A stretch of 11,669 nt of DNA from Pseudomonadota bacterium. GTDB taxonomy: Bacteria; Pseudomonadota; Gammaproteobacteria; Burkholderiales; Rhodocyclaceae. This document shows, one piece after another, positions 1 through 11,669 of this stretch (position 1 is its first letter; every line of letters starts with the position of its first letter). A model generated the notes under the pieces. That model saw only the letters and a program-made list of their open reading frames with translations. It had not been told where the DNA came from and ran no database searches. The DNA is taken from assembly GCA_030917225.1 (NCBI GenBank), contig JAUPVD010000120.1:1-11669 (forward strand), written 5' to 3'. The translations under genes and the position numbers were made by a program.

Positions 1-114
1 CGTGTCGTGACGACCATGCCGCTCGATGGCACCCATGTCGCCGTGACCAATGGCTTGCAGCCGGGCGATCGCGTCGTCGTGCGTGCTGCCACGCTGGTCA
101 ATCAGGTTCGTTAA
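1..114 (+). CDS. RND efflux periplasmic adaptor (membrane fusion) subunit, C-terminal fragment
   Basis: Only the last 37 codons are in the window, read in frame 1 to a TAA at 112-114. The peptide contains VTNGLQPGDRVVVRAATLVNQ, which matches the usual C-terminal end of HlyD/CusB-type adaptors (a V-x-x-GL-x-PGD-x-VV pattern followed by a hydrophobic Leu-Asn stretch). Such adaptors sit in the periplasm, anchored to the inner membrane, and link the RND pump to an outer-membrane channel. The stop lies 12 bp before the pump start, so the two genes are almost certainly cotranscribed. The 5' end is cut by the window edge, so substrate-binding features cannot be judged. The identification rests on a short tail plus position and is good but not independent of the neighbour. 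Confidence 0.75.
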   Translation, partial: RVVTTMPLDGTHVAVTNGLQPGDRVVVRAATLVNQVR

Positions 115-126
115 GAGGAACACGGC

Positions 127-3100
127 ATGTTCAAGTGGTTACTCGAAAACAGCCTGGTCAACCGGCTGCTGGTGAGCATCGCCAGCGTCGTGCTGACGGC
201 CTATGGCGCCTACACGCTGACGCGCACGCCGGTGGACGTCTTCCCCGACCTCAACAAGCCGACCGTCACGATCATGACGGAAGCGGGCGGCATGGCAGCG
301 GAGGAGGTCGAGCAACTGCTCACCTTTCCGCTCGAATCGACGATGAACGGCTTGCCAGGAGTCGAGAGCGTGCGCTCCGTTTCCAGTGCCGGTCTCTCCT
401 TCGTCTATGTCACCTTCGACTGGGCGACGGAAATCTTCCGCGCGCGGCAGATGGTGTCGGAGCGTCTTTCCGGCATGGAGGAAGGCTTGCCGCCGGGTGT
501 CATCCCACGCATGGGGCCGGTCAGTTCGATCATGGGCGAGATCATGCAGATTGCCATTCCCATCGACACGGCAAAACTCTCGCCGATGCAGGTGCGTGAA
601 TACGCCGACTGGGTGCTGCGTCCGCGCCTGATGGCGATTGCCGGCGTGGCGCAGGTGATCCCGATCGGTGGCGAGGTGCGCCAGTTCCAGGTGCAGCCGA
701 ACACCGTGCGCATGGCCGAACTCGGTATCTCGCACGAGCAACTGGAAGGCGCGCTCAAGGGCTATTCGTCGAATACTTCCGGGGGCTTTCTCGAACTGAA
801 CGGCCGCGAATATCTGATCCGCAATCTCGGCCGCACGTCGCGTCTGGAAGACCTGCAGCATCTGGCGCTGACGGCACGGAATGGACAGCCGATCCTGATG
901 CGACAGATTGCCGAGGTGACGTTCGCGCCCGCGCTCCGCCGTGGCGATGCCGGTTTCGAGGGCAAGCCGGCGGTCATCCTCGGTATCCAGAAGCAGCCGA
1001 CGGCGGACACCATTCACCTTACACGCAGCATCGAGGCCGCACTGAAAGACCTCGGCAAATCGCTGCCGGTGGGCATGGAGGCGCCGCAGGTCACCTTCCG
1101 TCAGGCGAGCTTCATCGAGGCGTCGATCGGCACCCTGCAGGGCAAGCTGGTCGGGGCGTCGATCTTCGTCGCGGCGATTCTCTTCTTCTTCCTCGGTACG
1201 CTGCGGCCGACGGTGATCGCACTCACCGCCATTCCTGTCTCGATCTTCGCGACGGCGCTGGTCTTCAAGTATTTCGGCCTGTCGATCAATACCATGACGC
1301 TGGGCGGCCTGGCCATCGCCATCGGTGGGCTGGTCGACGATGCAGTGGTTGGCGTAGAGAACGTGCTACGACGGCTGAAAGCGGATAGAGCCAGGCATCA
1401 CGACCACCGCATGCATCCGATCGAACTGGTTGCGCAGGCAACGATGGAAGTGCGCTCGGCGATTCTTTACGCAACGATCATCATCGTCCTCGTCTTTCTG
1501 CCACTGTTCGCGTTGCCCGGCATGGAGGGGCGCCTGTTTGTGCCGCTCGGCATTGCCTTCATCGTGTCGACGCTGGCCTCGCTGGTAGTGTCGGTGACGG
1601 TGACGCCGGTGCTCTCCTTCTACCTGTTGCCGCGCATGAAGTCGCTCGACCATGGCGATACGAAGCTGCTGGCCTGGCTCAAGGCGGCCTACCGCAATGC
1701 GTTGCAGACGGTGCTCGACCGGCCACGAATGGCGCTGGCGGCTGGCGCACTCGCGGTGCTGTTGGCTGCAGTTGCCGTTCCCTTCTTTCCGAAGACCTTC
1801 CTGCCGCCGTTCAACGAGGGCACCTTGCTGGTCGGCCTGCGCCTGAATCCGGGAGTGACACTGGCCGAGTCCTCGGACCTCGCCCGGCAAGCCGAAGTGC
1901 TGGTCAAGGGCGTACCCGAGGTGACCCACGTCGGGCGCCGCAGCGGTCGCGCCGAACTCGACGAACATGCCGAGGGTGTCCATGTCAGCGAACTCGATGT
2001 CGGCCTGAAACCGGCCGGCGAGCTGACCCGACCGATGGGTGAGATCGCTGGCGACATCCGCGCCCGCTTGGTCAATCTGCCGGCAGCCATCGCCGTTGGC
2101 CAGCCGATCTCGCACCGCATCGACCACATGCTCTCCGGCGTGCGTTCGCAGATCGCCATCAAGATTTTCGGCGACGACCTCGATACGCTGCGCGGGCAGG
2201 CCGACGCGCTGCGTGGCAAGCTGGCGGCGATTCCCGGTATTGCCGATCTGGAGATCGAGAAACAGGTACTGGCGCCGCAGATCAAGGTGCGCATCGACTA
2301 CGCCGCGGCAGCGCAATACGGCGTGCCGGCACCGCAGGTGCTGGCCACGCTGCAGAGCCTGGTCGAGGGCGAGAAGGTAGCGCAGATCGTCGAGGGCAAC
2401 CGGCGCTTTGCGCTGGTGGTTCGTCTGCCGGAATCGTCGCGCTCTATCGAAGGCCTGGGCGACATCCTGCTGGAGACGCCGCGTGGCCGCATTCCGCTTT
2501 CACGCATCGCCACCATCGAGGATAGCGACGGACCGAACCAGATCAGCCGCGATGATGGCAAACGGCGCATTGTCCTTTCAGCCAATGCCCAGGGGCGCGC
2601 GCTGTCGGAGATCGTCGAGGACATTCGCCGCGTGGTTGCCGAGAGCAAGCTGCCGGAAGGCTACTTCGTGACGCTTGGCGGCCAGTTCCAGGCGCAGGAG
2701 GAAGCCTCGCGCCTGGTCGGGCTGCTGTCGATCGTCTCGCTGGTGCTGATGTTCGCGGTGCTGTTCAGCCGCTACAAGTCGGTCCGGCTGTCGGTGCTGA
2801 TCATGGCCAACATCCCGCTGGCGCTGGTCGGTGCCGTGATCGGCCTGTGGATTTCCGGCCAGCCGCTGTCGGTGGCCGCGTTGATCGGCTTTATCACGCT
2901 CGCCGGCATCTCGGTGCGTAACGGCATCCTCAAGGTCAGCCATTACATCAATCTGATGCGCATGGAAGGCGAGAGTTTCGACCACAGCATGATCGTACGC
3001 GGCTCACTGGAACGTCTGGCACCGGTATTGATGACGGCGCTGGTGACTGCCTTTGCACTGGCGCCGCTGCTCTTCGAGGCTGAGCGGCCGGGCACCGAGA

Positions 3101-3246
3101 TCCTTCATCCGGTGGCAGTAGTCATCTTCTCCGGGCTGATCAGTTCGACGCTGCTCGATACCTTCCTGACACCTGCCATGTTCTGGCTGTTCGGTCGCAA
3201 GGATGCCGAGCGGCTGGTGAACGACCGAGATGTCGGGGCGCTTTGA
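127..3246 (+). CDS. RND efflux pump inner-membrane subunit, CusA/CzcA (heavy-metal) family
   Basis: This 1039-residue protein has the family's usual length and architecture. There is one N-terminal helix (about 12-30), a large periplasmic loop, helices at about 338-358, 362-384, 390-412, 444-464 and 472-500, then one at 534-553, a second periplasmic loop, and five helices from about 863 to 1020. The family is a proton-driven trimer that expels metal cations or other solutes from the periplasm. The fourth helix carries GLVDDAVVGVEN (401-412), matching the proton-relay segment: Asp405 or Asp404 and Glu411 are acidic. The first Asp of the CzcA-type DFG motif is replaced by Ala398, as in CusA. 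A start at 127 is supported by GAGGAA at 115-120. The gene follows the adaptor by 12 bp and precedes a His-rich secreted protein by 25 bp. From memory of CusA, its copper-relay methionines M573 and M623 correspond to Gly570 and Val620 here, and M672 falls at His667, with Met668 next to it. A copper call is therefore unsafe. The substrate is not assignable. Confidence 0.93.
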   Translation: MFKWLLENSLVNRLLVSIASVVLTAYGAYTLTRTPVDVFPDLNKPTVTIMTEAGGMAAEEVEQLLTFPLESTMNGLPGVESVRSVSSAGLSFVYVTFDWATEIFRARQMVSERLSGMEEGLPPGVIPRMGPVSSIMGEIMQIAIPIDTAKLSPMQVREYADWVLRPRLMAIAGVAQVIPIGGEVRQFQVQPNTVRMAELGISHEQLEGALKGYSSNTSGGFLELNGREYLIRNLGRTSRLEDLQHLALTARNGQPILMRQIAEVTFAPALRRGDAGFEGKPAVILGIQKQPTADTIHLTRSIEAALKDLGKSLPVGMEAPQVTFRQASFIEASIGTLQGKLVGASIFVAAILFFFLGTLRPTVIALTAIPVSIFATALVFKYFGLSINTMTLGGLAIAIGGLVDDAVVGVENVLRRLKADRARHHDHRMHPIELVAQATMEVRSAILYATIIIVLVFLPLFALPGMEGRLFVPLGIAFIVSTLASLVVSVTVTPVLSFYLLPRMKSLDHGDTKLLAWLKAAYRNALQTVLDRPRMALAAGALAVLLAAVAVPFFPKTFLPPFNEGTLLVGLRLNPGVTLAESSDLARQAEVLVKGVPEVTHVGRRSGRAELDEHAEGVHVSELDVGLKPAGELTRPMGEIAGDIRARLVNLPAAIAVGQPISHRIDHMLSGVRSQIAIKIFGDDLDTLRGQADALRGKLAAIPGIADLEIEKQVLAPQIKVRIDYAAAAQYGVPAPQVLATLQSLVEGEKVAQIVEGNRRFALVVRLPESSRSIEGLGDILLETPRGRIPLSRIATIEDSDGPNQISRDDGKRRIVLSANAQGRALSEIVEDIRRVVAESKLPEGYFVTLGGQFQAQEEASRLVGLLSIVSLVLMFAVLFSRYKSVRLSVLIMANIPLALVGAVIGLWISGQPLSVAALIGFITLAGISVRNGILKVSHYINLMRMEGESFDHSMIVRGSLERLAPVLMTALVTAFALAPLLFEAERPGTEILHPVAVVIFSGLISSTLLDTFLTPAMFWLFGRKDAERLVNDRDVGAL

Positions 3247-3271
3247 TTTTTACTCAACGAAAGGAAGAAGC

Positions 3272-3664
3272 ATGAAACTGTTTCGCTTGCTGTCTGTTTT
3301 CCTGGTAGCAACTTCTGGTGTCGCATTTGCCGACCATGATCACGCGCATAGCCACGGCCATGGCAACAACCCGATGCACGGCGGGGTGGTGACCGAGGTC
3401 AAGGATGTGGACTACGAACTGGTGGCCAAACCCGAATCGCTGCAGTTGCACCTGCGAAATCACGGCACGCCGATCAGCGTTGCCGGCGGCAGCGCCAAGG
3501 CGACCCTTCTCGCCGGCAGCGAAAAGCAGGAACTCGAACTCAAGCCGGCAGGGAACCGCTTCGAGTATGCCGGCATGGTCAAGGCGACGAGGGGCGCGAA
3601 GGTGGTGGTGGTCGTCAATCTTCCCGGCAAGCCGGCAGCGACGGCGCGCTTCGTGCTGAAGTAA
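3272..3664 (+). CDS. Small secreted His-rich protein, accessory of the RND operon
   Basis: This is a 130-residue protein of unknown function. I chose the ATG at 3272 because AAGGAAG at 3261-3267 gives a well-spaced ribosome site and because the protein then opens with a clean signal peptide: Lys2 and Arg5, a hydrophobic core of residues 6-18, and cleavage predicted after AFA (residue 20). An in-frame start at 3230 would overlap the pump gene and bury the signal peptide. The mature N-terminus has His at 22, 24, 26, 28, 30 and 36 with Asp21, Asp23 and Met35, a strong candidate metal-binding tail. The rest (about 38-130) is predicted from its alternating hydrophobic pattern to be a small beta-rich domain, with an HGG motif at 36-38. 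Its place 25 bp after the pump suggests a periplasmic metal-buffering or metal-delivery accessory. This role is inferred; similar small proteins accompany heavy-metal RND operons. Confidence 0.82.
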   Translation: MKLFRLLSVFLVATSGVAFADHDHAHSHGHGNNPMHGGVVTEVKDVDYELVAKPESLQLHLRNHGTPISVAGGSAKATLLAGSEKQELELKPAGNRFEYAGMVKATRGAKVVVVVNLPGKPAATARFVLK

Positions 3665-3679
3665 GGCGTGTACCGGTAC

Positions 3680-3706
3680 GCGATGAGAACCGAGAATTCT
3701 CATCGC
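3680..3706. terminator. Hairpin between converging operons, possible bidirectional terminator
   Basis: A perfect 10-bp inverted repeat (GCGATGAGAA at 3680-3689 and TTCTCATCGC at 3697-3706) encloses a 7-nt loop. It sits in the 69-bp gap between the stop of the His-rich gene (plus strand) and the stop of the methyltransferase gene (minus strand), where a shared terminator would be expected. No run of U follows on either strand, so this is not a classic intrinsic terminator. A second short palindrome, GTACCGGTAC at 3670-3679, abuts it. It may protect 3' ends or assist factor-dependent termination. Confidence 0.45.
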
Positions 3707-3733
3707 AGCATCGCCGTGCCCGTCCGCTCATTT

Positions 3734-4327
3734 TCAGGGCTGCGGAAAATTGTCGCAATAAGCGAGTTGGCCGAAGTGATATGGACAAGCCTCGCCAATG
3801 TCCACGTCGGCAATCGAATGAAACCCGGCTTCCTCCATCCAGCCCCGGCACTGCACTTCCGTCGGCCGAATCTCCAATGTCGGACCACGCGGCGTAGGGA
3901 TGTCGCTTCGCCAGTGAATGACGGACAGGCTGCCACCCTTGCCAAGAACGCGGCGCGCCTCGCGCAGCAGCGCGACGGGATTCTCGATGTGTAGCAGGTT
4001 GTAGATCATCGCGTGCCGTTGCGAGCCATCGTCGAGACCCGTTCCCAGCGCAACGAAATCCCGGACGGCCGCATTGACGTTGTTCAGGCCCGCATCGCTC
4101 GCCTTGTCCCTGACGATGGCGATCATTGCCGGCTCGATGTCGAGGGCCGTGACCCTACCCATCACCCGGCGTGCGGCCGACAGTGTGAAGGTGCCGTAGC
4201 CGGCGCCGAACTCGACCAGGTTTCCCGTTAGCGCCGTTTCCGGAAGCAGGCGGTCGAGCATCGCCTCCGGGTTAAAGAAGGAGGACCAGTAGTCTTCCTC
4301 CGGCATGCCGCTTTCCCGACCCTTCAT
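3734..4327 (-). CDS. Class I SAM-dependent methyltransferase, substrate unknown
   Basis: This 197-residue Rossmann-fold methyltransferase has motif I as VEFGAGYGTF (38-47, glycine loop) and an acidic residue for the SAM ribose at Asp63 (ALDIEP). A MIYNLLHIEN segment (107-116) follows at the usual motif-IV position, then ARRVLGKGGSLSVIHW (124-139, the PGG-like turn before the last strands). No signal peptide or membrane segment is seen, so it should be cytoplasmic. Its ATG overlaps the TGA of the upstream PLP-enzyme gene (ATGA at 4327-4324), which implies translational coupling and a shared transcript. A second in-frame ATG at residue 8 has a GGGAAAG upstream and is an alternative start. It resembles small UbiE/methyltransf-11-type enzymes in general form. 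The sulfur-themed operon makes a thiol, selenium or other small-molecule acceptor conceivable, but nothing in the sequence identifies the substrate. Confidence 0.85.
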   Translation of the reverse strand: MKGRESGMPEEDYWSSFFNPEAMLDRLLPETALTGNLVEFGAGYGTFTLSAARRVMGRVTALDIEPAMIAIVRDKASDAGLNNVNAAVRDFVALGTGLDDGSQRHAMIYNLLHIENPVALLREARRVLGKGGSLSVIHWRSDIPTPRGPTLEIRPTEVQCRGWMEEAGFHSIADVDIGEACPYHFGQLAYCDNFPQP

Positions 4328-5496
4328 GCTGACAGTGCCTGCTCCAGATCGGCGATCAGGTCCGCCGGGTCTTCCAGTCCGACCGAGAGGCGCAGCATCG
4401 CATCCGAAATGCCGCGACGCTGACGCTCTTCCGGCGTCAGCCCGTGGTGCGTGGTGGTGCAGGGTTGCGTGACGAGGCTTTCGGCGCCGCCCAGGCTGGG
4501 CGCCAGCGCAAACAGGCGCAGGGCATCGGCGACGCGCGTCGCGTCGGCGCCGGTGCCGCGCACTTCGATGCTGAGCATGCCGCCGAAGCCGTGCATCTGC
4601 TCCCGCGCCAGTGCGTGCCCCGGAAAATCGGCGAGGCCCGGATAGAAAACGCGGGCAATCTTCGGATGCCTGTTCATTGCTTCGGCTACCGCTTGCGCCG
4701 CTGCATTCTGCTGGCGCACGCGCACGACCAGCGTACGCAGGCTGCGCGAAAGCAGCGAGGCGGTTTCCGGCGCAATCATCGAGCCGAGGTTCTTGCGCCA
4801 GTTCCAGACCGGCATCAGATCGTCCTTCTTCCCCATCAGCGCGCCGGCGGTGAGATCGCTGTGGCCACCGAGGTACTTGGTAGCGCTATGCACAACGAAA
4901 TCGGCGCCGAGTTCGAGCGGACGTTGGTTCACCGGCGAGGCAAAGGTATTGTCGACGGCGACCTTGGCGCCGTATTTTTGGGCGACGAGCGAAATCGCGC
5001 GGATGTCGAACAGCTCCAGTGTTGGGTTGGTCGGCGTCTCAAAGAACACCAGTCGGGCGCCGTCGGCCAGCAGGACATCGAGCTTGCCGAGTTCGTTGCC
5101 GAGGATGCAGTGCGTCTTGATGCCAAGCAGCGGCAGTTGGGCCGAGAGCAGTTCCAGGGTGCCGCCGTAGGCGTCGCCGATGCAGACGATGCCATCGCGG
5201 CCCTGGGTCAGGAACAGCGCGGTCTCGGCGGCCATGCCCGAGCAGAAAGCCCATGCTGCCTCGGCGCTTTCGAGTCCGGCCAGCGTTTCCTCCAGCGCGA
5301 AGATGCTCGGGTTCAGGCCGTAACGCGTGTAGAGGCTGCCGGCCTTGCGACCGTCAACGACGTCGAGCAGGTCGGCCGTGGACGGAAAGGCGAAGGTGGT
5401 AGTGTTGTAGATCGGGACGTGCGGACTGCCGTGGGCGTCCTTCAGGGTCGTACCGTGAATTGCGCGCGTTGATAGTCCCTGTGCAGGCTTGCTCAT
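4324..5496 (-). CDS. PLP-dependent Cys/Met-metabolism (cystathionine gamma-synthase/lyase-like) enzyme
   Basis: This 390-residue enzyme belongs to the gamma-family of PLP transsulfuration enzymes (cystathionine gamma-synthase, cystathionine gamma-lyase, O-acyl-homoserine sulfhydrylase, methionine gamma-lyase). Family marks are YTRYGLNPS (56-64, the Tyr/Arg that contact PLP phosphate across the dimer), CSGMAA (85-90), ETPTNP (153-158), VDNTFASP (181-188, Asp182 pairing with the PLP ring nitrogen), SATKYLGGHSD (204-214) with Schiff-base Lys207, SLGGAESL (334-341), and LRLSVGLED with Arg369 for the substrate carboxylate. The start at 5496 has GGGAG at 5508-5504 with good spacing. The open frame runs to 5868 upstream, but that extension overlaps the dsrE-like gene and is low-complexity. 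It is third in the minus-strand operon, 55 bp after the DsrE-like gene, and its stop overlaps the methyltransferase start. The reaction cannot be fixed from motifs alone. The gene context favours sulfur mobilisation or thiol handling over routine methionine synthesis, which is inference. Confidence 0.9.
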   Translation of the reverse strand: MSKPAQGLSTRAIHGTTLKDAHGSPHVPIYNTTTFAFPSTADLLDVVDGRKAGSLYTRYGLNPSIFALEETLAGLESAEAAWAFCSGMAAETALFLTQGRDGIVCIGDAYGGTLELLSAQLPLLGIKTHCILGNELGKLDVLLADGARLVFFETPTNPTLELFDIRAISLVAQKYGAKVAVDNTFASPVNQRPLELGADFVVHSATKYLGGHSDLTAGALMGKKDDLMPVWNWRKNLGSMIAPETASLLSRSLRTLVVRVRQQNAAAQAVAEAMNRHPKIARVFYPGLADFPGHALAREQMHGFGGMLSIEVRGTGADATRVADALRLFALAPSLGGAESLVTQPCTTTHHGLTPEERQRRGISDAMLRLSVGLEDPADLIADLEQALSA

Positions 5497-5551
5497 GATT
5501 TGTCTCCCTATTGGTATTGGATTGGGCAATGAATTGGGTGATAGCTTTGTT

Positions 5552-5893
5552 TCAGAACACCAGAACCTTGTCCGCCTCGGCGGTCCAGGTCGCCAGTTGG
5601 TCGAGCGTGCCGCGTGTGGCACCGGGCACGATCTCGTTATCGGCAATGCCGCGTGCGTTGAGACAGGTGCCGCACAAAGCCACTTCGCCGCCGACCATGC
5701 GCACCATGTCACCAGCGTTGTAGTAGCCCTCCGGCACCTTCTGCCCGGCTTTGGCGCAGGCGACGGAATCGCCCATGAGGAAAACGCGAACCGTCTCTCC
5801 TTCCTTCTTGCCGAGGGCACGCGCCAAGCGCAGTGCGTTGTAGCTGCGCTCGCTGCCGTAGGGGGCATCGTTGAGGATGAACAGCGTGTTCAT
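5552..5893 (-). CDS. DsrE/TusD-family (YchN-like) sulfur-relay-type protein
   Basis: This 113-residue cytoplasmic protein has the DsrE/DsrF-like fold pattern: an N-terminal strand NTLFILNDAPYGSE, a helix rich in Arg/Leu (17-28), the strand VRVFLMGDSV (35-44), and a Cys-bearing loop. Cysteines are at 46, 74 and 77. The C-G-T-C pair lies in VALCGTCLNARGI (71-83), near the position where TusD and DsrE carry their sulfur-accepting Cys, so a persulfide carrier role is plausible. The start at 5893 is supported by GAAGGGAG (5908-5901), 7 bp from the ATG. The gene lies 25 bp after the ArsR-rhodanese gene and 55 bp before the PLP enzyme. Family members act in tRNA thiolation, dissimilatory sulfur oxidation or unknown sulfur transfer. 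No TusBC or Dsr partners are present here, so it probably receives sulfur from a different donor. Confidence 0.87.
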   Translation of the reverse strand: MNTLFILNDAPYGSERSYNALRLARALGKKEGETVRVFLMGDSVACAKAGQKVPEGYYNAGDMVRMVGGEVALCGTCLNARGIADNEIVPGATRGTLDQLATWTAEADKVLVF

Positions 5894-5918
5894 GGCATTT
5901 CTCCCTTCGTTGTGAGAT

Positions 5919-6578
5919 TCAGCGGTCCAGCGGCATGCCGTTCGTCGACCATTCGGTCACGCCGTCGCTGATCTTGCTGGCCGAGAAGCCCCGCGCGCGC
6001 AGCAGGCGGACGGCTTCGTCCGACATCAGGCAAAACGGGCCGCGGCAATAGGCGACGATCTCCTTGCCCGGCAGCAGGTCGGCGATGCGTTGCTCCAGTT
6101 CTTCCAGCGGCATCGAGCGGGCGTGTGGCAGATGGCCGGCCGCGAACTCGTCACCGGGGCGCACGTCGATGACGACGAGTTCGCCGCTGCGGGCCTTGGC
6201 GAGAAGCGATTCGCGGCTCTCCGAAAGCAAGGCATCCGGCTGTGTCGCCATCTGTTCGAGCGCGATGCGAAGTTCGATCAGATGCTCTTCAGCCGTGCCA
6301 CGCAGGGTCAGCCAGAGTTGGGCGATGTCCGGGCCGCTCAGGCGGTAGCGAATGAATTTGCCTTCCCGGCTGCTTTCGACAAGACGCGCCTCGCGCAAAG
6401 CGCGGAGATGCGCACTCGCCAGCCGGATGTCAATGCCGCAGCGCTGCGCCAGCACATCGACGGTCTGCTCGCCCTGGGCGAGAAGTTCAATGATCTCCAG
6501 ACGCTTGGAACTGGACAGGGCCTTTCCGATGCGGGCGACCTGCTCGTAAAGGTGGGTGCGTGTTGGATTTTGTTTCAT
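5919..6578 (-). CDS. ArsR-family repressor fused to a rhodanese domain
   Basis: This is a 219-residue two-domain protein. Residues about 10-95 form an ArsR-type winged helix: KRLEIIELLAQGEQTVDVLAQ, then a recognition-helix region at about 50-64 (IRLASAHLRALREARLV), then the wing SREGKFIRYRL (70-80). Residues about 118-219 form a rhodanese (sulfurtransferase) domain with IDVRPGDEFAAGHLPHA (137-153) and the active-site loop YCRGPFCLMSDEAV, with catalytic Cys178 and a second Cys183. The only other Cys is Cys47, beside the helix-turn-helix. ArsR-rhodanese fusions are known; the expected role is a DNA-binding regulator that responds to sulfane sulfur or thiosulfate. It is the first gene of the minus-strand operon, so it probably autoregulates. 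The next Met is at residue 110, so the ATG at 6578 is the only sensible start, yet no Shine-Dalgarno precedes it. Confidence 0.93.
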   Translation of the reverse strand: MKQNPTRTHLYEQVARIGKALSSSKRLEIIELLAQGEQTVDVLAQRCGIDIRLASAHLRALREARLVESSREGKFIRYRLSGPDIAQLWLTLRGTAEEHLIELRIALEQMATQPDALLSESRESLLAKARSGELVVIDVRPGDEFAAGHLPHARSMPLEELEQRIADLLPGKEIVAYCRGPFCLMSDEAVRLLRARGFSASKISDGVTEWSTNGMPLDR

Positions 6579-6579
6579 A

Positions 6580-6618
6580 CTAACAATCTAACGAATTAAC
6601 GAATGTAGGTCAACGAAT
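6580..6618 (-). repeat. Octamer repeat array over the arsR-rhodanese promoter (candidate operator)
   Basis: Read on the minus strand, ATTCGTTG (6618-6611), ATTCGTTA (6604-6597), ATTCGTTA (6596-6589) and ATTGTTAG (6587-6580) follow one another from the -35 box to two bases before the ATG. The two central copies are identical and abut, and the fourth lacks the C. The AT-rich array stands out in a GC-rich window. Its place across the -35/-10 spacer fits an ArsR-type repressor operator, most simply for autoregulation by the gene it precedes. Direct rather than inverted repeats are atypical for a dimeric ArsR protein, so binding by several dimers, or by another protein, is possible. Confidence 0.6.
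6585..6613 (-). promoter_or_regulatory. Sigma70-type promoter of the arsR-rhodanese/dsrE/PLP/methyltransferase operon
   Basis: On the minus strand, TTGACC (6613-6608) is separated by exactly 17 bp from TAGATT (6590-6585). The -35 matches consensus at five of six positions and the -10 at four of six. Transcription would start about 7 bp downstream, at or within one or two bases of 6578, the A of the ATG. No SD-like purine run lies between the -10 and the ATG, so the transcript may be leaderless. Confidence 0.65.
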
Positions 6619-6619
6619 T

Positions 6620-6810
6620 GCTTTGGTCTCAGGTCGAAACTGTCGGAACGCATTTGTCAGCAATGGAGAACTCGACTGGTAGATGCGTGAATTCGCAGCA
6701 TGAGGAACTACTGTTCTCCGGCTACCAATGTTGAATGGCTGCTAAGTAGCTCGTTGCAGCCTGATTCTTCTCCGCAGGCCAACGGCAGCAAAGGCCGACC
6801 AGCCGCCCCC
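6620..6810. other. Unassigned intergenic stretch between arsR-rhodanese promoter and cysB stop
   Basis: These 191 bases follow the cysB-like gene (minus strand) and precede the arsR-rhodanese promoter. I find no credible gene. The short open frame starting at 6700 on the plus strand has no ribosome site and runs into the antisense of cysB. No U-tailed hairpin was seen. Only weak wobble-containing stems near 6777-6800 might end cysB transcription. The base composition is more mixed than that of the flanking genes, so a decayed sequence is possible. Confidence 0.4.
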
Positions 6811-7752
6811 TTACAACTGATACTCCTCCCCGCCCCCCGCCAGCGCCATGTCCACCGCCTTCCGCGTCAGGTGCGAGGCGAAGAACTCGATGAAGTCGTA
6901 TTCGTAGCGCCGCAGGTAGCTGCCGCGCCGCATGCCGAGGCGCGTGGTGTTGGAGCCGAAGAGGTGTTCGGCATCGAGGGCGGCTAGCCCGACATCCCGC
7001 TGCGGGTCGAAGGCCATGCGGGCGATGATGCCGAGGCCGAGGCCAAGGCTGACGTAGGTCTTGATCACGTCGGCGTCGATGGCGGCGAGCACGACGTTCG
7101 GCTTGAGGCTGGCCCGCTCGAAGGCGCGGTTAATGCGCGAGCGGCCGGAGAAGGCCGGGTCGTAGGTGACCAGCGGCCACTTGGTCAGCGATGACAGTGA
7201 CAGCCCTTTCTCCTTGAGAATCGCGTGGCCTTCCGGAGCAATCACCGCGTGCCCCCACTGATGGCATGGCAGCGTGATCAGCGCCGGGTACTGGTCGAGC
7301 GATTCGGTGGCGATGGCCAGATCGGCTTCGCCAGAGAGCGTCCATTCGGCGATCTGGGTCGGGTTACCCTGGTGCAGCGTCAGCCGAACCTTGGGCCAGC
7401 GTTCGAGGAATCGGCTGACGACTGCGGGCAACACATAGCGCGCCTGCGTGTGCGTGGTCGCGATGTTGAGGCTGCCCGTGTCCTCGCCGGCGTATTCCTC
7501 GCCGACACGCTTGAGGTTGTCGGCCTCGCGCAGGATGCGTTCGGAGATTTCCAGCACCGCCTTGCCCGGCTCGGTGATGCCGGTGAGGCGTTTGCCGCTG
7601 CGCTCGAAGACGGTGATGCCAAGCTCGTCCTCAAGCAGCCGCACCTGCTTGGAAACACCCGGCTGCGAGGTGTGCAGAGCCTCGGCGGCCTCCGAGACGT
7701 TGAGCCCCTGGCGGGCGACTTCGACCAGATAGCGGAGTTGCTGAAGCTTCAT
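6811..7752 (-). CDS. cysB: CysB-type LysR-family regulator of sulfur assimilation
   Basis: This 313-residue LysR-type regulator starts MKLQQLRYLVEVARQGLNVS, nearly as in E. coli CysB, with the helix-turn-helix at about 18-37 (SEAAEALHTSQPGVSKQVR). The inducer-binding domain keeps residues that line the sulfate/effector pocket of CysB at the same numbers: Thr100, Thr102 and Gln103 in TTHTQAR, Thr149 in AIATE, and Trp166 in CHQWG. Thr202 is conservatively replaced by Ser202 (AFSGRS). CysB activates sulfate-assimilation genes with N-acetylserine or O-acetylserine as co-inducer and represses itself. It is transcribed divergently from the exporter and sulfite-reductase genes 104 bp away, consistent with their being its targets. 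AGGTG (7762-7758) serves as the ribosome site. A paralogous Cbl-like role cannot be fully excluded, but the cys neighbours favour CysB. It is slightly shorter than the 324-residue E. coli protein, mainly at the C-terminus. Confidence 0.93.
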   Translation of the reverse strand: MKLQQLRYLVEVARQGLNVSEAAEALHTSQPGVSKQVRLLEDELGITVFERSGKRLTGITEPGKAVLEISERILREADNLKRVGEEYAGEDTGSLNIATTHTQARYVLPAVVSRFLERWPKVRLTLHQGNPTQIAEWTLSGEADLAIATESLDQYPALITLPCHQWGHAVIAPEGHAILKEKGLSLSSLTKWPLVTYDPAFSGRSRINRAFERASLKPNVVLAAIDADVIKTYVSLGLGLGIIARMAFDPQRDVGLAALDAEHLFGSNTTRLGMRRGSYLRRYEYDFIEFFASHLTRKAVDMALAGGGEEYQL

Positions 7753-7766
7753 GGCAGCACCTAAAT

Positions 7767-7777
7767 AACAATTTGTT
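7767..7777. promoter_or_regulatory. Dyad AACAA-T-TTGTT near the predicted cysB transcription start
   Basis: AACAATTTGTT at 7767-7777 is a perfect 5-1-5 dyad. It lies about where the minus-strand cysB transcript should begin (near 7776) and 14 bp upstream of its ATG, a position suited to an autorepression or roadblock site. TAACAAT occurs twice here (7766-7772 and 7779-7785), 13 bp apart. The nine bases AACAATTTG recur at 8648-8656, just before the sulfite reductase gene. Which protein binds is unknown; CysB is the obvious candidate. Confidence 0.4.
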
Positions 7778-7790
7778 CTAACAATCTAAC
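7778..7790 (-). repeat. 13-bp word shared with the arsR-rhodanese promoter
   Basis: CTAACAATCTAAC at 7778-7790 is identical to 6580-6592; on the minus strand it reads GTTAGATTGTTAG. In both places it contains the proposed -10 hexamer TAGATT at the same offset, followed by GTTAG. It is itself a direct repeat of GTTAG with a 3-bp gap. It may be a shared operator or a shared core-promoter sequence. Confidence 0.6.
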
Positions 7791-7811
7791 TCAATATTCT
7801 TTTTCACTCAA
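7783..7811 (-). promoter_or_regulatory. Candidate sigma70 promoter of cysB
   Basis: On the minus strand, TTGAGT (7811-7806) and TAGATT (7788-7783) are separated by 17 bp, each matching four of six consensus bases. The predicted start is near 7776, giving a leader of about 25 nt that holds the AGGTG ribosome site. The -35 box shares one base with the -35 box proposed for the divergent exporter promoter. Confidence 0.5.
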
Positions 7812-7829
7812 TTCTCCTGTTGTTACTAT
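7801..7829 (+). promoter_or_regulatory. Candidate promoter of the exporter / cys operon
   Basis: TTTTCA (7801-7806) and TACTAT (7824-7829) lie 17 bp apart, each matching four of six consensus bases. The predicted start near 7836 gives a short leader of about 20 nt before the ATG at 7857. The weak -35 box would fit activator dependence, for example on CysB. An alternative pairing, TTGTTC (7773-7778) with TATTCT (7795-7800), is weaker. Confidence 0.45.
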
Positions 7830-7856
7830 GCGCCCATACATTTATTGCGGTGCATC

Positions 7857-8630
7857 ATGGACTGGCTCTACACCCTTTCAGGCTTTGCCGTTGGCGCGAT
7901 CGTCGGGCTCACCGGCGTCGGCGGCGGCTCGCTGATGACTCCCCTGCTGGTGCTGTTGTTCGGCATTCACCCGGCCACGGCTGTGGGTACCGACCTGCTC
8001 TATGCCGCCCTGACCAAATCCGGCGGCACCGTAGTCCATGGCCGCAAGGGCCACGTCGACTGGAAGATCGTCGGACTGCTGGCTTCGGGCAGCATTCCGG
8101 CCACGGCCATCACCATTTTCATCCTCTCGCAACTGCCCAAGCAGGATGCCGCCACAACCCATGCGATTTCGTTTGCGCTCGGCATCGCCCTGCTGCTGAC
8201 CGCCGGCGCCATCATCTTCCGCAAGCAGATCCTCAGCTACGCACAGGCGCACGAAACCTCCTTCCTGCATCGCCATCAGGCGCCGGTCACTGTTGCGGTC
8301 GGAGCCATTCTGGGCGTACTCGTTTCGATTTCGTCGGTCGGCGCTGGCGCGTTGGGCGTCGCCGCACTCTACTTTCTCTACCCGCGACTGCAGGCCGTAC
8401 GCATTGTCGGCACCGACATCGCGCATGCCGTGCCGCTGACACTGGTCGCCGGCACCGGCCACTGGCTGCTCGGCAACGTCGATTGGTCGCTGCTCGGCGC
8501 CCTGCTGCTCGGCTCGCTGCCCGGCATCTGGGTTGGCAGCCACATTTCGGCCAAGGTTCCGGATAGAATCCTGCGCCCGATCCTCGCCAGCATGCTGGTG
8601 CTGATCGGCGCGAAACTAATCGCCAGCTAG
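7857..8630 (+). CDS. TauE/SafE-family membrane transporter, probable sulfite or sulfonate exporter
   Basis: This is a 257-residue polytopic inner-membrane protein. Hydrophobic segments lie at about 4-20, 26-45, 68-90, 102-121, 143-180, 191-229 and 238-255. The family's internal duplication is visible: VGLTGVGGGSL (16-26) echoes LVSISSVGAGAL (155-166), and VGTDLLYA (43-50) echoes VGTDIAHA (184-191). TauE/SafE proteins export sulfite, sulfoacetate or related anions. Standing in front of a sulfite reductase gene and divergent from cysB, a sulfite-relief role is the best guess, though sulfate or thiosulfate transport is possible. I chose the ATG at 7857; an in-frame TTG at 7845 would add four residues but has no better ribosome site, and the SD is poor for both. 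The sulfite reductase begins 52 bp downstream, so cotranscription is likely. Confidence 0.87.
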   Translation: MDWLYTLSGFAVGAIVGLTGVGGGSLMTPLLVLLFGIHPATAVGTDLLYAALTKSGGTVVHGRKGHVDWKIVGLLASGSIPATAITIFILSQLPKQDAATTHAISFALGIALLLTAGAIIFRKQILSYAQAHETSFLHRHQAPVTVAVGAILGVLVSISSVGAGALGVAALYFLYPRLQAVRIVGTDIAHAVPLTLVAGTGHWLLGNVDWSLLGALLLGSLPGIWVGSHISAKVPDRILRPILASMLVLIGAKLIAS

Positions 8631-8682
8631 AGCGCCTAAGCCACAACAACAATTTGCAAAGCCCCCACGCAGAGACCTGACC
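8631..8682 (+). other. Exporter to sulfite reductase spacer with AACAATTTG word
   Basis: This 52-bp spacer lacks a terminator-like hairpin, so read-through from the exporter is expected. It contains AACAATTTG (8648-8656), the same nine bases as in the cysB/exporter intergenic region, overlapping the 8-bp palindrome TTTGCAAA (8653-8660). It could hold a secondary regulatory site. Only a weak AGAG precedes the next ATG. Confidence 0.3.
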
Positions 8683-10359
8683 ATGTACCGCTACGACCAC
8701 TACGATCAAGCCCTCGTCGACGAACGCGTCGCCCAGTTCCGCGACCAGGTCGCGCGCTGGAAGGCAGGCGAGCTTTCCGACGACGAACTGCGTCCGCTGC
8801 GCCTGCAGAACGGCCTCTACATCCAGCGCCACGCGCCGATGTTCCGCATCGCCGTCCCCTACGGCATGCTCGCCTCGCGCCAGCTGCGCTGCCTGGCCGA
8901 ACTCGGCCGCAAGTACGACCGCGGCTACGGCCATTTCACCACGCGCCACAACATGCAGTTCAACTGGCCGAAAATCGAGGACGTGCCGGAGATGCTGGCC
9001 GAACTGGCCAAGGTCGAGATGCACGCCATCCAGACTTCTGGCAACTGCATCCGCAACGTCACCACCGACCAGTTTGCTGGTGTCGCTGCCGACGAGATTC
9101 TCGACCCGCGCCCGCTGTGCGAAATCCTGCGCCAGTGGAGCACCTTCCACCCGGAATTCGCCTTCCTGCCGCGCAAATTCAAGATCGCGGTGAACGGCGC
9201 CAGGGAAGACCGCGCGCTGACCTGGTTCCACGACATCGGCCTGCACATCCTGAAAACCGACGACGGCCTCGTTGGCTTCCGCGTCATTGTCGGTGGCGGC
9301 TTGGGCCGCACGCCGATCCGCGGCGAGATCGTGCGCGAGTTCCTGCCCTGGCAGGACATCCTCACCTACTGCGAAGCCATCCTGCGTGTGTACAACCGCT
9401 ACGGCCGCCGCGACAACGCCTACAAGGCCCGCATCAAGATCCTCGTGCAAGCACTTGGCGTCGTTGAATTCGCCCGCCAGGTTGAGGAAGAATGGGCGTA
9501 CCTGAAAGGCGGTCCGGCCACCATCACGCAGGCCGAATACGACCGCGTCACCGCCTTCTTCGGCGCTCCGGCCTATGCCACGCTGCCGACCATCGACGAA
9601 ACCTTTGTCGCCCAGCAAGCCGATTCCGTGCCCTTCGCCCGCTGGGTCGAGCGCAACGTGCGGCCGCACCGCATTCCTGGTTATGCCTCGGTCACGCTGT
9701 CGTTGAAGAAACCGGGTATTGCGCCGGGCGACATCACCTCCGACCAGATGGACATTGCCGCTGAACTGGCCGACGCCTACAGCTTCGGCGAATTGCGCGT
9801 CACGCACGAGCAGAATCTGGTGCTGGCCGATGTCGAACAGCGCCAGTTGTTCGCGCTGTGGCAGGAAGCCAAGGCCGCCGGTTTCGCCACGCCGAACATC
9901 GGCCTGCTGACCGACATGATCGTCTGCCCCGGCGGCGATTTCTGCGACCTCGCCAACGCCCGCTCGATCCCGGTGGCCAACGCCGTGCAGGCGCGCTTCG
10001 ACGACCTCGACTACCTGTGGGACATCGGCGACATCGAACTCAACTTCTCCGGCTGCATGAACTCCTGCGGTCACCACCACGTCGGCAATATCGGTATCCT
10101 CGGCGTCGACAAGGGCAACGAGGAGTGGTACCAGATCACCCTCGGCGGCGAGCAGGGCAACGACGCCCGCCTCGGCAAGGTCATCGGCCCGTCGTTCGCT
10201 GCGGCCGATGTACCGGACGTGATCGAGAAGATCGTCCGTTTCTACATCGCCCAGCGCTTTGATGACGAGCGCTTCATCGATACCTTCCGCCGTCTCGGCG
10301 CCGACCCGTTCAAGGTTGCCGTCTATGGCGACAAGGCCCGCCTGAAGGCCGCCGCCTGA
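8683..10359 (+). CDS. cysI: Siroheme/4Fe-4S sulfite (or nitrite) reductase hemoprotein
   Basis: This 558-residue cytoplasmic enzyme reduces sulfite to sulfide by six electrons. The duplicated ferredoxin-like/siroheme domain plan is visible. Active-site basic residues are present: Arg88 in FTTRHNMQF, Arg124 in SGNCIRNV, and Lys165 and Lys167 in LPRKFKI, corresponding to R83, R153, K215 and K217 of the E. coli enzyme. The cluster cysteines are Cys415 and Cys421 (CPGGDFC, C-x5-C) and Cys458 and Cys462 (CMNSC, C-x3-C), with Cys462 expected to bridge to siroheme iron. The SGNCIRN form resembles the ferredoxin-type nitrite/sulfite reductases common in betaproteobacteria. No cysJ flavoprotein is in the window, so the electron donor must be encoded elsewhere. 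Linkage to cysH, DUF934 and cysB supports sulfite rather than nitrite. The DUF934 gene starts within 12 bp of the stop. Confidence 0.92.
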   Translation: MYRYDHYDQALVDERVAQFRDQVARWKAGELSDDELRPLRLQNGLYIQRHAPMFRIAVPYGMLASRQLRCLAELGRKYDRGYGHFTTRHNMQFNWPKIEDVPEMLAELAKVEMHAIQTSGNCIRNVTTDQFAGVAADEILDPRPLCEILRQWSTFHPEFAFLPRKFKIAVNGAREDRALTWFHDIGLHILKTDDGLVGFRVIVGGGLGRTPIRGEIVREFLPWQDILTYCEAILRVYNRYGRRDNAYKARIKILVQALGVVEFARQVEEEWAYLKGGPATITQAEYDRVTAFFGAPAYATLPTIDETFVAQQADSVPFARWVERNVRPHRIPGYASVTLSLKKPGIAPGDITSDQMDIAAELADAYSFGELRVTHEQNLVLADVEQRQLFALWQEAKAAGFATPNIGLLTDMIVCPGGDFCDLANARSIPVANAVQARFDDLDYLWDIGDIELNFSGCMNSCGHHHVGNIGILGVDKGNEEWYQITLGGEQGNDARLGKVIGPSFAAADVPDVIEKIVRFYIAQRFDDERFIDTFRRLGADPFKVAVYGDKARLKAAA

Positions 10360-10370
10360 GGAATATGACC

Positions 10371-10880
10371 ATGACCAAGATCATCAAGAACCGTCAGGCT
10401 GTTGCCGATGACTACACCCTGCTCAAGCTGGCTGAAGGCGAAGTTGCCGAGACCGTCGCGCTGCCAGCCGGTGCTGTGCTGGTACCGTTGGCCGTTTGGG
10501 TGGCACGCAAGACTGAACTACTGGCCCGCGGTACCCCGGTCGGCGTTTGGCTCGATGCTGGCGAAGGCCCGGAAGCTATCGACGCCGACCTCGCCCAACT
10601 CCCGGTCATCGGCGTGAATTTCCCGAAGTTTGTCGATGGCCGCGGCTACTCGACCGCCCGCCTGCTGCGCGAGCGCTACGGCTACCAGGGCGAAATCCGC
10701 GCCATCGGCGACGTGCTGCAGGACCAGCTGTTCCTGATGGCCCGCTGCGGCTTTGACGCCTTCGCGCTACGCGCCGACAAGAGCATCGAGAAGGCCCTCG
10801 GCGCCTTCGAAACCTTCAAGGCGCCGTATCAGGCGGCCGTCGACCAGACTCAACCCCTCTTCCGCCGCCGCGCTGCGTAA
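10371..10880 (+). CDS. DUF934 protein, probable accessory to sulfite reduction
   Basis: This 169-residue cytoplasmic protein has the DUF934 signature VNFPKFVDGRGYSTARLLRE near its middle, followed by the conserved GEIRAIGDVLQDQLFLMARCGFDAF. No metal-binding Cys cluster is seen (one Cys, in ARCGF). DUF934 genes recur between or beside cysI and cysH in proteobacteria, and the family is generally linked to sulfite reduction. A biochemical activity is not established to my knowledge; electron delivery or assembly of the reductase are possibilities. Two ATGs occur, at 10365 and 10371. I prefer 10371 because AGGA at 10359-10362 is 8 bp from it but only 2 bp from the first. Either way the gene follows cysI closely and ends 4 bp before cysH. 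Confidence 0.88.
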   Translation: MTKIIKNRQAVADDYTLLKLAEGEVAETVALPAGAVLVPLAVWVARKTELLARGTPVGVWLDAGEGPEAIDADLAQLPVIGVNFPKFVDGRGYSTARLLRERYGYQGEIRAIGDVLQDQLFLMARCGFDAFALRADKSIEKALGAFETFKAPYQAAVDQTQPLFRRRAA

Positions 10881-10884
10881 AAAT

Positions 10885-11601
10885 ATGTCGATCAACATCA
10901 CCCTCAACGACGCCCTGCTCGCCTCGACCGCCGCCAAGACCGACGCCGCGAAGAAACTGCTGGCCGAGATCGCCCGCGATTTCTCGCCGGTCACCTTCGC
11001 CAACAGCCTCGGCGCCGAGGACATGGTGCTGACCGACCTGATCGTCAGGGAAAAGCTCGACATCGAGATCTTCTCGCTCGACACCGGCCGCCTGCCGCTG
11101 GAAACCTACGACCTGATGGCCGAGGTACAGAAGCACTATGGCTTGAAGCTCAAGGTCTATACGCCGCGCCACGAGCTGCTCGAGCCCTTCGTCCGCGACA
11201 AGGGCATCAACGCCTTCTACGAATCGGTCGAGCTCAGGAAGGGCTGCTGCTTCGTGCGCAAGGTCGAGCCGCTGCAGCGTGCGCTCTCTGGCAAGAAGGC
11301 CTGGATCACCGGCATGCGCGCCCAGCAGTCGGCCACCCGCGACGGCCTGCCGGTACGCAGCTTCGACGACGGCAACGGGCTGGAGAAATTCAATCCGCTC
11401 GCCGACTGGAGCGAAAAGGAAGTCTGGGCCTACCTCAAGCAGCATGGCGTCCCTTACAACGCGTTGCATGACAAGTTCTATCCGTCGATCGGCTGTGCAC
11501 CCTGTACGCGCGCCGTGACCCCCGGCGAAGATGTACGCTCCGGCCGCTGGTGGTGGGAAAATGCCGACACGAAAGAGTGCGGGTTGCACGTCAAGGCCTG
11601 A
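10885..11601 (+). CDS. cysH: Assimilatory APS-type (4Fe-4S) reductase CysH
   Basis: This 238-residue enzyme of the PAPS/APS reductase family reduces adenylylated sulfate to sulfite with thioredoxin or glutathione. The nucleotide-binding start SPVTFANSLGAEDMVL (34-49) and the SLDTGRLPLETY stretch (64-75) are typical. Two Cys pairs, Cys121-Cys122 (KGCCFVRK) and Cys204/Cys207 (GCAPC), are the 4Fe-4S ligands that distinguish APS-using enzymes from the clusterless E. coli PAPS reductase. The catalytic Cys232 lies in ECGLH near the C-terminus. This predicts sulfate assimilation through APS without a need for APS kinase. The start at 10885 gives the expected family length; an in-frame extension upstream to 10753 only overlaps DUF934 out of phase. 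No SD is visible before the ATG, so translation probably depends on the preceding gene, 4 bp away. Confidence 0.95.
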   Translation: MSINITLNDALLASTAAKTDAAKKLLAEIARDFSPVTFANSLGAEDMVLTDLIVREKLDIEIFSLDTGRLPLETYDLMAEVQKHYGLKLKVYTPRHELLEPFVRDKGINAFYESVELRKGCCFVRKVEPLQRALSGKKAWITGMRAQQSATRDGLPVRSFDDGNGLEKFNPLADWSEKEVWAYLKQHGVPYNALHDKFYPSIGCAPCTRAVTPGEDVRSGRWWWENADTKECGLHVKA

Positions 11602-11669
11602 GGCACGGCGGCTGATCCGAACTTCCCCGCCGAAGAGGACTCCAACCCTTGTCGCCGCACTGATTTCCA
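11602..11669. other. Right-edge sequence after cysH, nothing recognised
   Basis: No gene can be assigned in these 68 bases and there is no ATG on the plus strand. A 6-bp stem (CGGCGG at 11606-11611 with CCGCCG at 11627-11632) has a 15-nt loop and no U tract, so it is not a convincing terminator. GAAGAGGA at 11632-11639 looks like a ribosome site, so a further cys gene such as a sulfate adenylyltransferase subunit may begin just beyond. Confidence 0.3.

Follow-up and report, generated by a model that had tools for sequence, protein, structure and literature searches.

An ArsR-rhodanese, DsrE and methyltransferase gene set with a conserved operator, and its possible part in the response to sulfane sulfur

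The stretch analysed here (the window) comprises 11,669 bases of a single contig (JAUPVD010000120.1, positions 1 to 11,669) from a Rhodocyclaceae bacterium, whose own genome amounts to 2.6 Mb and is 74% complete. On the minus strand it carries an operon for an ArsR-rhodanese fusion regulator, a DsrE protein, a pyridoxal 5'-phosphate (PLP) enzyme and an S-adenosylmethionine (SAM) methyltransferase. The operon type is real, conserved and mobile, and we read it, with a probability of about one half, as a member of a horizontally exchanged detoxification set responsive to sulfane sulfur, in which the sensor is built in a new way and one branch leads to methylation. Within this reading the sensing of sulfane sulfur is rather probable, and the methylation of sulfide is put forward tentatively. 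The four genes are as follows:

5919-6578, minus strand: ArsR-rhodanese fusion regulator, 219 amino acids (Pfam HTH_20/HTH_5 and Rhodanese).
5552-5893, minus strand: YchN-like DsrE protein, 113 amino acids, with a C74-G-T-C77 motif (Pfam DsrE, 75 bits).
4324-5496, minus strand: gamma-family PLP enzyme of cysteine/methionine metabolism, 390 amino acids (Pfam Cys_Met_Meta_PP, 388 bits).
3734-4327, minus strand: small class I SAM methyltransferase, 197 amino acids, UbiE-like, with the N-terminus KGRESGMP (Pfam Methyltransf_25/11).

Successive genes are 25 and 55 bp apart, except for the last pair, which overlaps by 4 bp where the stop of the PLP gene meets the start of the methyltransferase gene. 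This layout, already described in the first-pass annotation of the sequence, is confirmed, and Pfam backs each of the families. The mechanical open reading frame of the PLP enzyme extends to 5868, and its start is likely the ATG at 5496, with GGGAGA upstream. The four-gene arrangement is not due to chance.

Each operon protein was searched against 121 genomes of the same family (own genome included), with matches in 18 genomes for the PLP enzyme (E ≤ 1e-100), 39 for DsrE (E ≤ 1e-15), 5 for the methyltransferase (E ≤ 1e-20) and 30 for ArsR-rhodanese (E ≤ 1e-25). Only DsrE matches with 55% identity or more, from 24 genomes, entered the linkage counts; weaker ones were dropped. Where both genes occur, ArsR-rhodanese lies within 10 kb of DsrE in 21/23 genomes, of the PLP gene in 8/8 and of the methyltransferase gene in 5/5; the remaining pairs are found within the same distance in 3/3 (PLP-methyltransferase), 5/6 (DsrE-PLP) and 3/4 genomes (DsrE-methyltransferase). 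The four families are conserved neighbours in related genomes, and the outcome that the first-pass annotation had named as refuting, families standing apart, is not what the counts give. The exact order ArsR-rhodanese, DsrE, PLP, methyltransferase, for which a check across genomes had been proposed, recurs in Denitromonas iodatirespirans (L105) and in a Rhodocyclaceae metagenome-assembled genome (L124). Variant orders are ArsR-PLP-methyltransferase-DsrE (L142) and methyltransferase-DsrE-PLP (L120, L149).

Beyond the family, a collection of species genomes was scanned with an alignment of five methyltransferases and 283 relatives were confirmed; the counts use the best 80 of these 283, with partner genes mapped by tblastn. 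Within 5 kb, ArsR-rhodanese and DsrE are both present at 44 loci, ArsR-rhodanese alone at 7 and DsrE alone at 8, so that 59/80 loci have at least one of them. The breakdown by phylum, which takes in 74 of the 80 rows, shows linkage in Pseudomonadota (44/52), Chloroflexota (6/6), Acidobacteriota (4/5), Campylobacterota (1/1) and unplaced genomes (1/2); the single rows of Hydrogenedentota and Thermodesulfobacteriota are unlinked (0/1 each). Of 1991 candidates for the methyltransferase family, 1501 match at E ≤ 1e-10. The PLP gene is found at only 9/80 methyltransferase loci, and for 10 of the 18 PLP-bearing genomes of the family no ArsR-rhodanese match was returned at E ≤ 1e-25. What stays constant is the trio ArsR-rhodanese/DsrE/methyltransferase, with PLP as an accessory gene, so that a single fixed pathway of all four genes, as envisaged earlier, is not supported; nor is the relay of sulfur from the PLP enzyme via DsrE to the methyltransferase as stated. 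Other accessory genes at the 80 loci code for a metallo-beta-lactamase (MBL) protein (11), a major facilitator superfamily (MFS) transporter (11) and a protein designated c3 (14). A further rhodanese was reported at 12 loci, in three of which (L136, L153, L164) it is merely the rhodanese half of the regulator.

The operon is preceded by a promoter and an operator:

6585-6613, minus strand: promoter, with a -35 box TTGACC (6613-6608), 17 nt and a -10 box TAGATT (6590-6585).
6583-6606, minus strand: conserved inverted-repeat operator, in minus-strand reading ACATTCGTTAATTCGTTAGATTGT, spanning the spacer and the -10 box.

The promoter had been called a good one. By itself it is weak (9/12 matches; 1 found against 0.8 expected from shuffles), and what lends it weight is that the -10 box falls inside the conserved palindrome, found upstream of ArsR-rhodanese genes as ACATTCTAAnnATnnTTAGAATGT. 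A repressor bound there would occlude the promoter, because the palindrome overlies both spacer and -10 box. The end of this box lies 6 nt ahead of the regulator ATG, and in 33/51 ArsR-rhodanese genes the operator is placed at -28 relative to the called start, from which the operon mRNA is probably leaderless. The window operator scores 23.5 with the position weight matrix and is the top site of its own genome (15.2 bits, E 0.09), the site itself being in the training set of the model. All 51 upstream regions used for building the matrix score at least 11, compared with 0.4% of shuffled sequences, a comparison that is circular for these 51.

The operator was also assessed on 26 held-out ArsR-rhodanese genes from the family genomes, none near-identical to a training locus. 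A site scoring at least 14 is present within 260 nt upstream in 19/26 of them, against 5/398 control windows. The whole-genome search used a sequence-only model on the 121 genomes, with stricter filters by which some weak matches were lost. At E ≤ 0.05 all 14 sites adjoin ArsR-rhodanese and/or DsrE genes (4 of the 14 are training sites), and at E ≤ 0.5 this holds for 19 of 25 distinct sites. In G095 the DsrE gene is on a different contig from ArsR-rhodanese, yet a site (E 0.14) lies 46 bp before the DsrE match. Across the 80 loci (1.08 Mb) two sites scoring at least 12 are not assigned to an ArsR-rhodanese gene, the same number as in shuffled sequence, and one of the two (L126) precedes an ArsR-rhodanese gene overlooked by the gene caller. 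The operator and the neighbouring genes support, at the level of sequence, a regulon for reactive sulfur governed by the fusion protein; this part of the earlier interpretation stands together with the conserved neighbourhood, and the fixed pathway does not.

The ArsR domain of the regulator is recognised by HTH_20 (35.0 bits) and HTH_5 (34.2 bits), both above cut-off, and by NF033788 (70.5 versus 55), and the rhodanese domain by PF00581 (49.5 bits versus 22.2). In the rhodanese loop C178-R-G-P-F-C183 (CRGPxC), Cys178, Arg179, Gly180 and Cys183 are present in 51/51 aligned sequences and Pro181 in 47/51. The known ArsR repressors that respond to sulfane sulfur rely on a cysteine pair within that domain, which in sHdrR is Cys50 and Cys116, and their named targets include sqr, sox, pdo, rhd, shdr, RND pumps, TauE and SoxT/PmpAB, according to the parts of the source consulted (PMC12423496). 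Like SqrR, BigR, SoxR, sHdrR, YgaV and HlyU, the window regulator is an ArsR-type repressor heading an operon for sulfur handling, with sulfane sulfur as the probable inducer; unlike in the SqrR/BigR group, its conserved cysteines are in the fused rhodanese, and it is partnered at the core by DsrE and a methyltransferase. The curated BigR model NF040642 is not reached (44.2 bits versus 155). Judged by its residues, the regulator fails membership of the SqrR/BigR/sHdrR group on the defining feature, though it may work in a like manner; because conserved cysteines are absent from the ArsR domain, it would act, if at all, through another site.

The closest solved protein to DsrE is YchN (1jx7, E 3.6e-22), and both Cys74 and Cys77 are conserved in 48/48 sequences. 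The YchN/DsrE carrier proteins are sequence relatives with conserved cysteines in both; in contrast to the DsrEFH/TusBCD sets, the window DsrE is a single protein with a CGTC pair, and it does not reach the TusD model TIGR03012 (28.7 bits versus 89.25). A second DsrE-family protein with 41% identity is coded elsewhere in the own genome (L002 1501-1845, G000:C393).

The methyltransferase is UbiE-like (PF01209, 29.8 bits versus a cut-off of 20.1). Cys160, His113, His138, His184 and a PRGP motif are present in 77/77 aligned sequences; another alignment, with 30 rows, shows Cys160 and the first proline of PRGP as no more than nearly invariant. The AlphaFold2 model is a compact class I fold with a mean predicted local distance difference test (pLDDT) score of 89.6, and the closest fold match is an uncharacterised Aquifex protein, so that the fold gives no substrate. 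Arsenite methyltransferase (ArsM) was considered and rejected (NF008823, 23.5 bits versus 263). MddH, MddM1, MddM2 and TMT1A/B are, like the window enzyme, small SAM methyltransferases in a sulfur setting, and MddH and MddM2 are UbiE-like as well, a likeness at the level of class. These two UbiE-type S-methyltransferases use H2S and methanethiol (PMC12904073); a search of that paper gave 0 matches each for ArsR and rhodanese.

The PLP enzyme matches the cysteine/methionine-metabolism PLP enzymes over its full length and shares with them the Schiff-base lysine and the conserved Tyr/Arg residues at the active site. In the subfamily alignment (24 rows, a few identical) the Schiff-base lysine Lys207 and Tyr110, Ser334 and Arg369 are conserved in 24/24 rows, and Tyr56 and Arg58 in 23/24. 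Gly112, Arg234-Lys235, Pro333 and Cys346 are likewise present in all 24. The first two align with what we take to be the markers Cys116 and Lys240-Asp241 of methionine gamma-lyase (numbering and residue roles presumed), and the Pro333 position is presumably Val or Glu in the named enzymes. The enzyme lies below the cut-offs of all 25 NCBIfam models listed of the 45 matched. In that list the best values for cystathionine gamma-lyase/synthase are 344.1 versus 600 (NF006097) and 342.1 versus 513 (NF005871), and those for O-acylhomoserine sulfhydrylase are 317.8 versus 522, 301.7 versus 510.05 and 287.6 versus 495.1, so that neither assignment was retained. From the alignment the enzyme is a subfamily of its own, with Pro333 and Cys346 throughout, and because the methionine gamma-lyase markers are absent the family does not fix its substrate.

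These data bear on the idea that the operon is one of methionine gamma-lyase, in which the PLP enzyme would free methanethiol from methionine and the methyltransferase would convert it to dimethylsulfide. The closest solved chains are indeed methionine gamma-lyases (E about 1e-88), the two genes overlap, and the Mdd pathway offers a case of megL and S-methyltransferases within a single organism (PMC12904073, in the parts consulted). The marker residues are replaced in every row, as given above, and the score for TIGR01328 is 371.6 bits versus a cut-off of 549.7, on which membership was rejected; we consider this explanation very improbable.

From the gene order, the conservation, the conserved cysteines and the operator with its genome-wide specificity, which are observed directly, we infer an inducer, a mode of repression, a PLP substrate, a methylated product and a series of reactions, as follows. 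A dimer of the ArsR-rhodanese protein on the palindrome over the -10 box would keep the operon off. On a build-up of persulfide or polysulfide, Cys178 of the rhodanese domain would be persulfidated and probably linked to Cys183, and the repressor would release the DNA. DsrE, through its CGTC motif, would take sulfane sulfur from low-molecular-weight carriers and hold or reduce it, and the methyltransferase would use SAM to S-methylate the released sulfide or a small thiol, giving methanethiol or dimethylsulfide. In other members disposal would be supplemented by MBL proteins resembling persulfide dioxygenases, an MFS or TauE exporter, and periplasmic rhodaneses. In some members the PLP enzyme would make or break the C-S bond of a small thiol amino acid (at the cysteine/homocysteine level), linking the sulfur pool to amino acids in either direction.

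A wider claim is that this is an undescribed, mobile, multi-phylum sulfur-stress system in which the fused rhodanese, not the ArsR domain, reads sulfane sulfur, DsrE is the carrier, a family of S-methyltransferases vents methanethiol or dimethylsulfide, and a new PLP subfamily feeds or drains the pool; taken in full it seems somewhat unlikely. If it is true, there would be a second mechanism by which ArsR regulators perceive reactive sulfur, and environmental bacteria may release volatile sulfur through a large methyltransferase family that has gone uncounted as a source. The first-pass annotation knew of no named pathway with this set, and the open-access literature searched likewise yields no description of it, which is not proof that none exists. 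The operator offers a direct handle on the regulon and its inducer, and among the named members of the set are Denitromonas iodatirespirans (L105) and Aromatoleum evansii (L125).

Several observations weigh against the detoxification reading. The ArsR domain is without the cysteine pair, and no column other than 178 and 183 has Cys in at least half of the 51 rows. The MBL proteins by ArsR-rhodanese/DsrE operons show weak similarity, below cut-off, to glyoxalase II and the Blh sulfur dioxygenase, and reach no persulfide-dioxygenase cut-off. Neither partner is present within 5 kb at 21/80 methyltransferase loci (7 of these 21 have a flank shorter than 3 kb), and all rows of Planctomycetota and Verrucomicrobiota (0/3 each) are unlinked. 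Six of the 25 operator sites at E ≤ 0.5 are located elsewhere, and seven of the 26 held-out genes lack a site in the 260 nt before them. For five of these seven (G034, G069, G078, G092, G119) a site is found 680-1440 nt upstream; these are the sole other sites scoring at least 14 in the 26 loci, and therefore the control-window matches fall on them. In G023 and G055 the site is absent from 1.5 kb upstream. Finally, in the Streptomyces operons described below, cysteine desulfurase and TusA would make, not remove, sulfane sulfur.

The mobility of the gene set is evident from plasmids. A plasmid of Azotobacter salinestris carries ArsR-rhodanese, DsrE, MBL, MFS, rhodanese and methyltransferase genes, and the set is likewise plasmid-borne in Azonexus hydrophilus and Methylocystis rosea. 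Four plasmid records have a PLP relative at E ≤ 1e-80. The Streptomyces plasmids pFRL4 and pI have ArsR-rhodanese, cysteine desulfurase and PLP genes, then MFS and TusA, with an MFS gene and an MBL-annotated protein on the opposite strand. These operons (L227 4083-8866 and L228 4083-9424, with an extra CMD protein in L228) are an actinobacterial version with TusA, in which DsrE is not annotated. For the MBL-annotated protein Pfam gives two rhodanese stretches and no MBL domain; in its Rhodococcus opacus counterpart the MBL part scores 22.5 bits versus a cut-off of 22.7. In the Paracoccus record a DsrE gene (55%) is found 4.5 kb from the PLP relative and the ArsR relative is distant only (33%). 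This locus (L230, Paracoccus versutus pBEN) has MFS, DsrE and a methyltransferase gene, followed before the PLP relative by an opposite-strand flavoprotein of the pyridine-nucleotide-disulfide type and a second MFS gene. On the Acidithiobacillus caldus megaplasmid (L229) the PLP relative (74%) stands behind an ArsR protein of 126 amino acids, opposite a resistance-nodulation-division (RND) efflux set.

Sulfur-handling neighbours across the gene set are TauE, cysteine desulfurase, TusA, DsrP and rhodaneses; TauE and thioredoxin-like proteins are found in or beside ArsR-rhodanese/DsrE operons, as is DsrP (384 bits versus a cut-off of 350) with an Fe-S partner. Because cysteine desulfurase and TusA would generate sulfane sulfur, a donor role of the operon stays alive: sulfane sulfur made from cysteine by the PLP lyase or the desulfurase would be carried by DsrE/TusA to a toxicant such as cyanide, selenite, tellurite or a metalloid, and this would be thiolated, methylated and then exported. 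The Streptomyces plasmids fit this scheme, as do the cysteine desulfurase genes near ArsR-rhodanese in Methylocystis and in G001/G041, where a type II dimethyl sulfoxide (DMSO)-reductase-family set adjoins, the chromate transporter after the Herbaspirillum operon, and the SAM methyltransferase SefB beside SefA in Thauera selenatis (PMC3975340, in the parts consulted). Metal and oxyanion genes are occasional, and the persulfide-dioxygenase-like and TauE partners would burn or export that same sulfur. ArsM carries a characteristic Cys set, unlike the methyltransferase with its one cysteine (Cys160) conserved throughout. We regard the donor role as unlikely.

The window and L124 can be aligned over 3815-6622 with 88% DNA identity, and the homology begins ~9 bp before the -35 box. 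The ArsR-rhodanese, DsrE and PLP proteins are 96-98% identical and the methyltransferases 66%, with the first 25 residues identical. This drop, together with the unchanged N-terminus, makes recombination inside the methyltransferase gene (3815-4260) likely.

The surroundings of the operon in the window begin with a further gene:

6811-7752, minus strand: cysB-like gene, upstream of the operon and on the same strand.

Beyond it, on the plus strand, are tauE, a sulfite/nitrite-reductase-like gene, a DUF934 gene and cysH. As no terminator-like site was found between the cysB-like gene and the operon, transcription may read through into the operon. These neighbours could suggest that the operon serves assimilation or redirection of sulfur, with the PLP enzyme fixing sulfide onto activated homoserine or serine and the operon tuning assimilation beside a cysB/cysI/cysH cluster; O-acylhomoserine sulfhydrylases belong to the same PLP family. 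The mapped relatives, however, carry the operon in other surroundings, the homology with L124 stops short of these genes, the listed sulfhydrylase models are below their cut-offs, and the rhodanese sensor, DsrE and methyltransferase would all be left unexplained, which renders this role quite unlikely. At the other end the operon faces a convergent gene of the CusA/CzcA RND type, and directly after that gene a small His-rich protein, probably exported, is coded at 3272-3664, which matches no Pfam or NCBIfam model.

A few further genes were noticed near members of the set. The c3 protein (L106 9002-9439 and relatives) has ~146 amino acids and no Pfam match, is probably exported or periplasmic, occurs near ArsR-rhodanese and DsrE, and is possibly a new sulfur-related periplasmic family. 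In several phyla (L133, L136, L141, L143, L144, L153, L160, L178) an N-terminally extended PNP_UDP_1-type protein is encoded next to the methyltransferase gene or the operon that contains it; none of the three scanned members reaches a curated nucleosidase/phosphorylase cut-off. In L212 (4003-8329) and L223 (4667-9090) an operator-bearing DsrE gene leads into an MMPL-type exporter gene and one for a LolA-like protein, possibly an envelope branch of the same regulon; both domains were verified in L212, where a DUF1302-like protein follows. The type II DMSO-reductase-family set of L098 (G001) and, by similarity, L092 (G041) is flanked by ArsR-rhodanese, thioredoxin-like proteins, rhodaneses, a PLP enzyme and cysteine desulfurase, and the alpha subunit in L098 is closest to the solved perchlorate reductase 4ydd.

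With regard to the operator, three divergent ArsR-rhodanese genes (L080, L082 and L084, from G078, G069 and G119; 39-41% identity) have it ~680 nt upstream. An imperfect operator-like site at chance level (E 0.10) precedes a MarR-type gene in the own genome (L221 1561-2060, G000:C156), and in G116 (L099) a MarR gene 55% identical to this one stands directly before the PLP gene.

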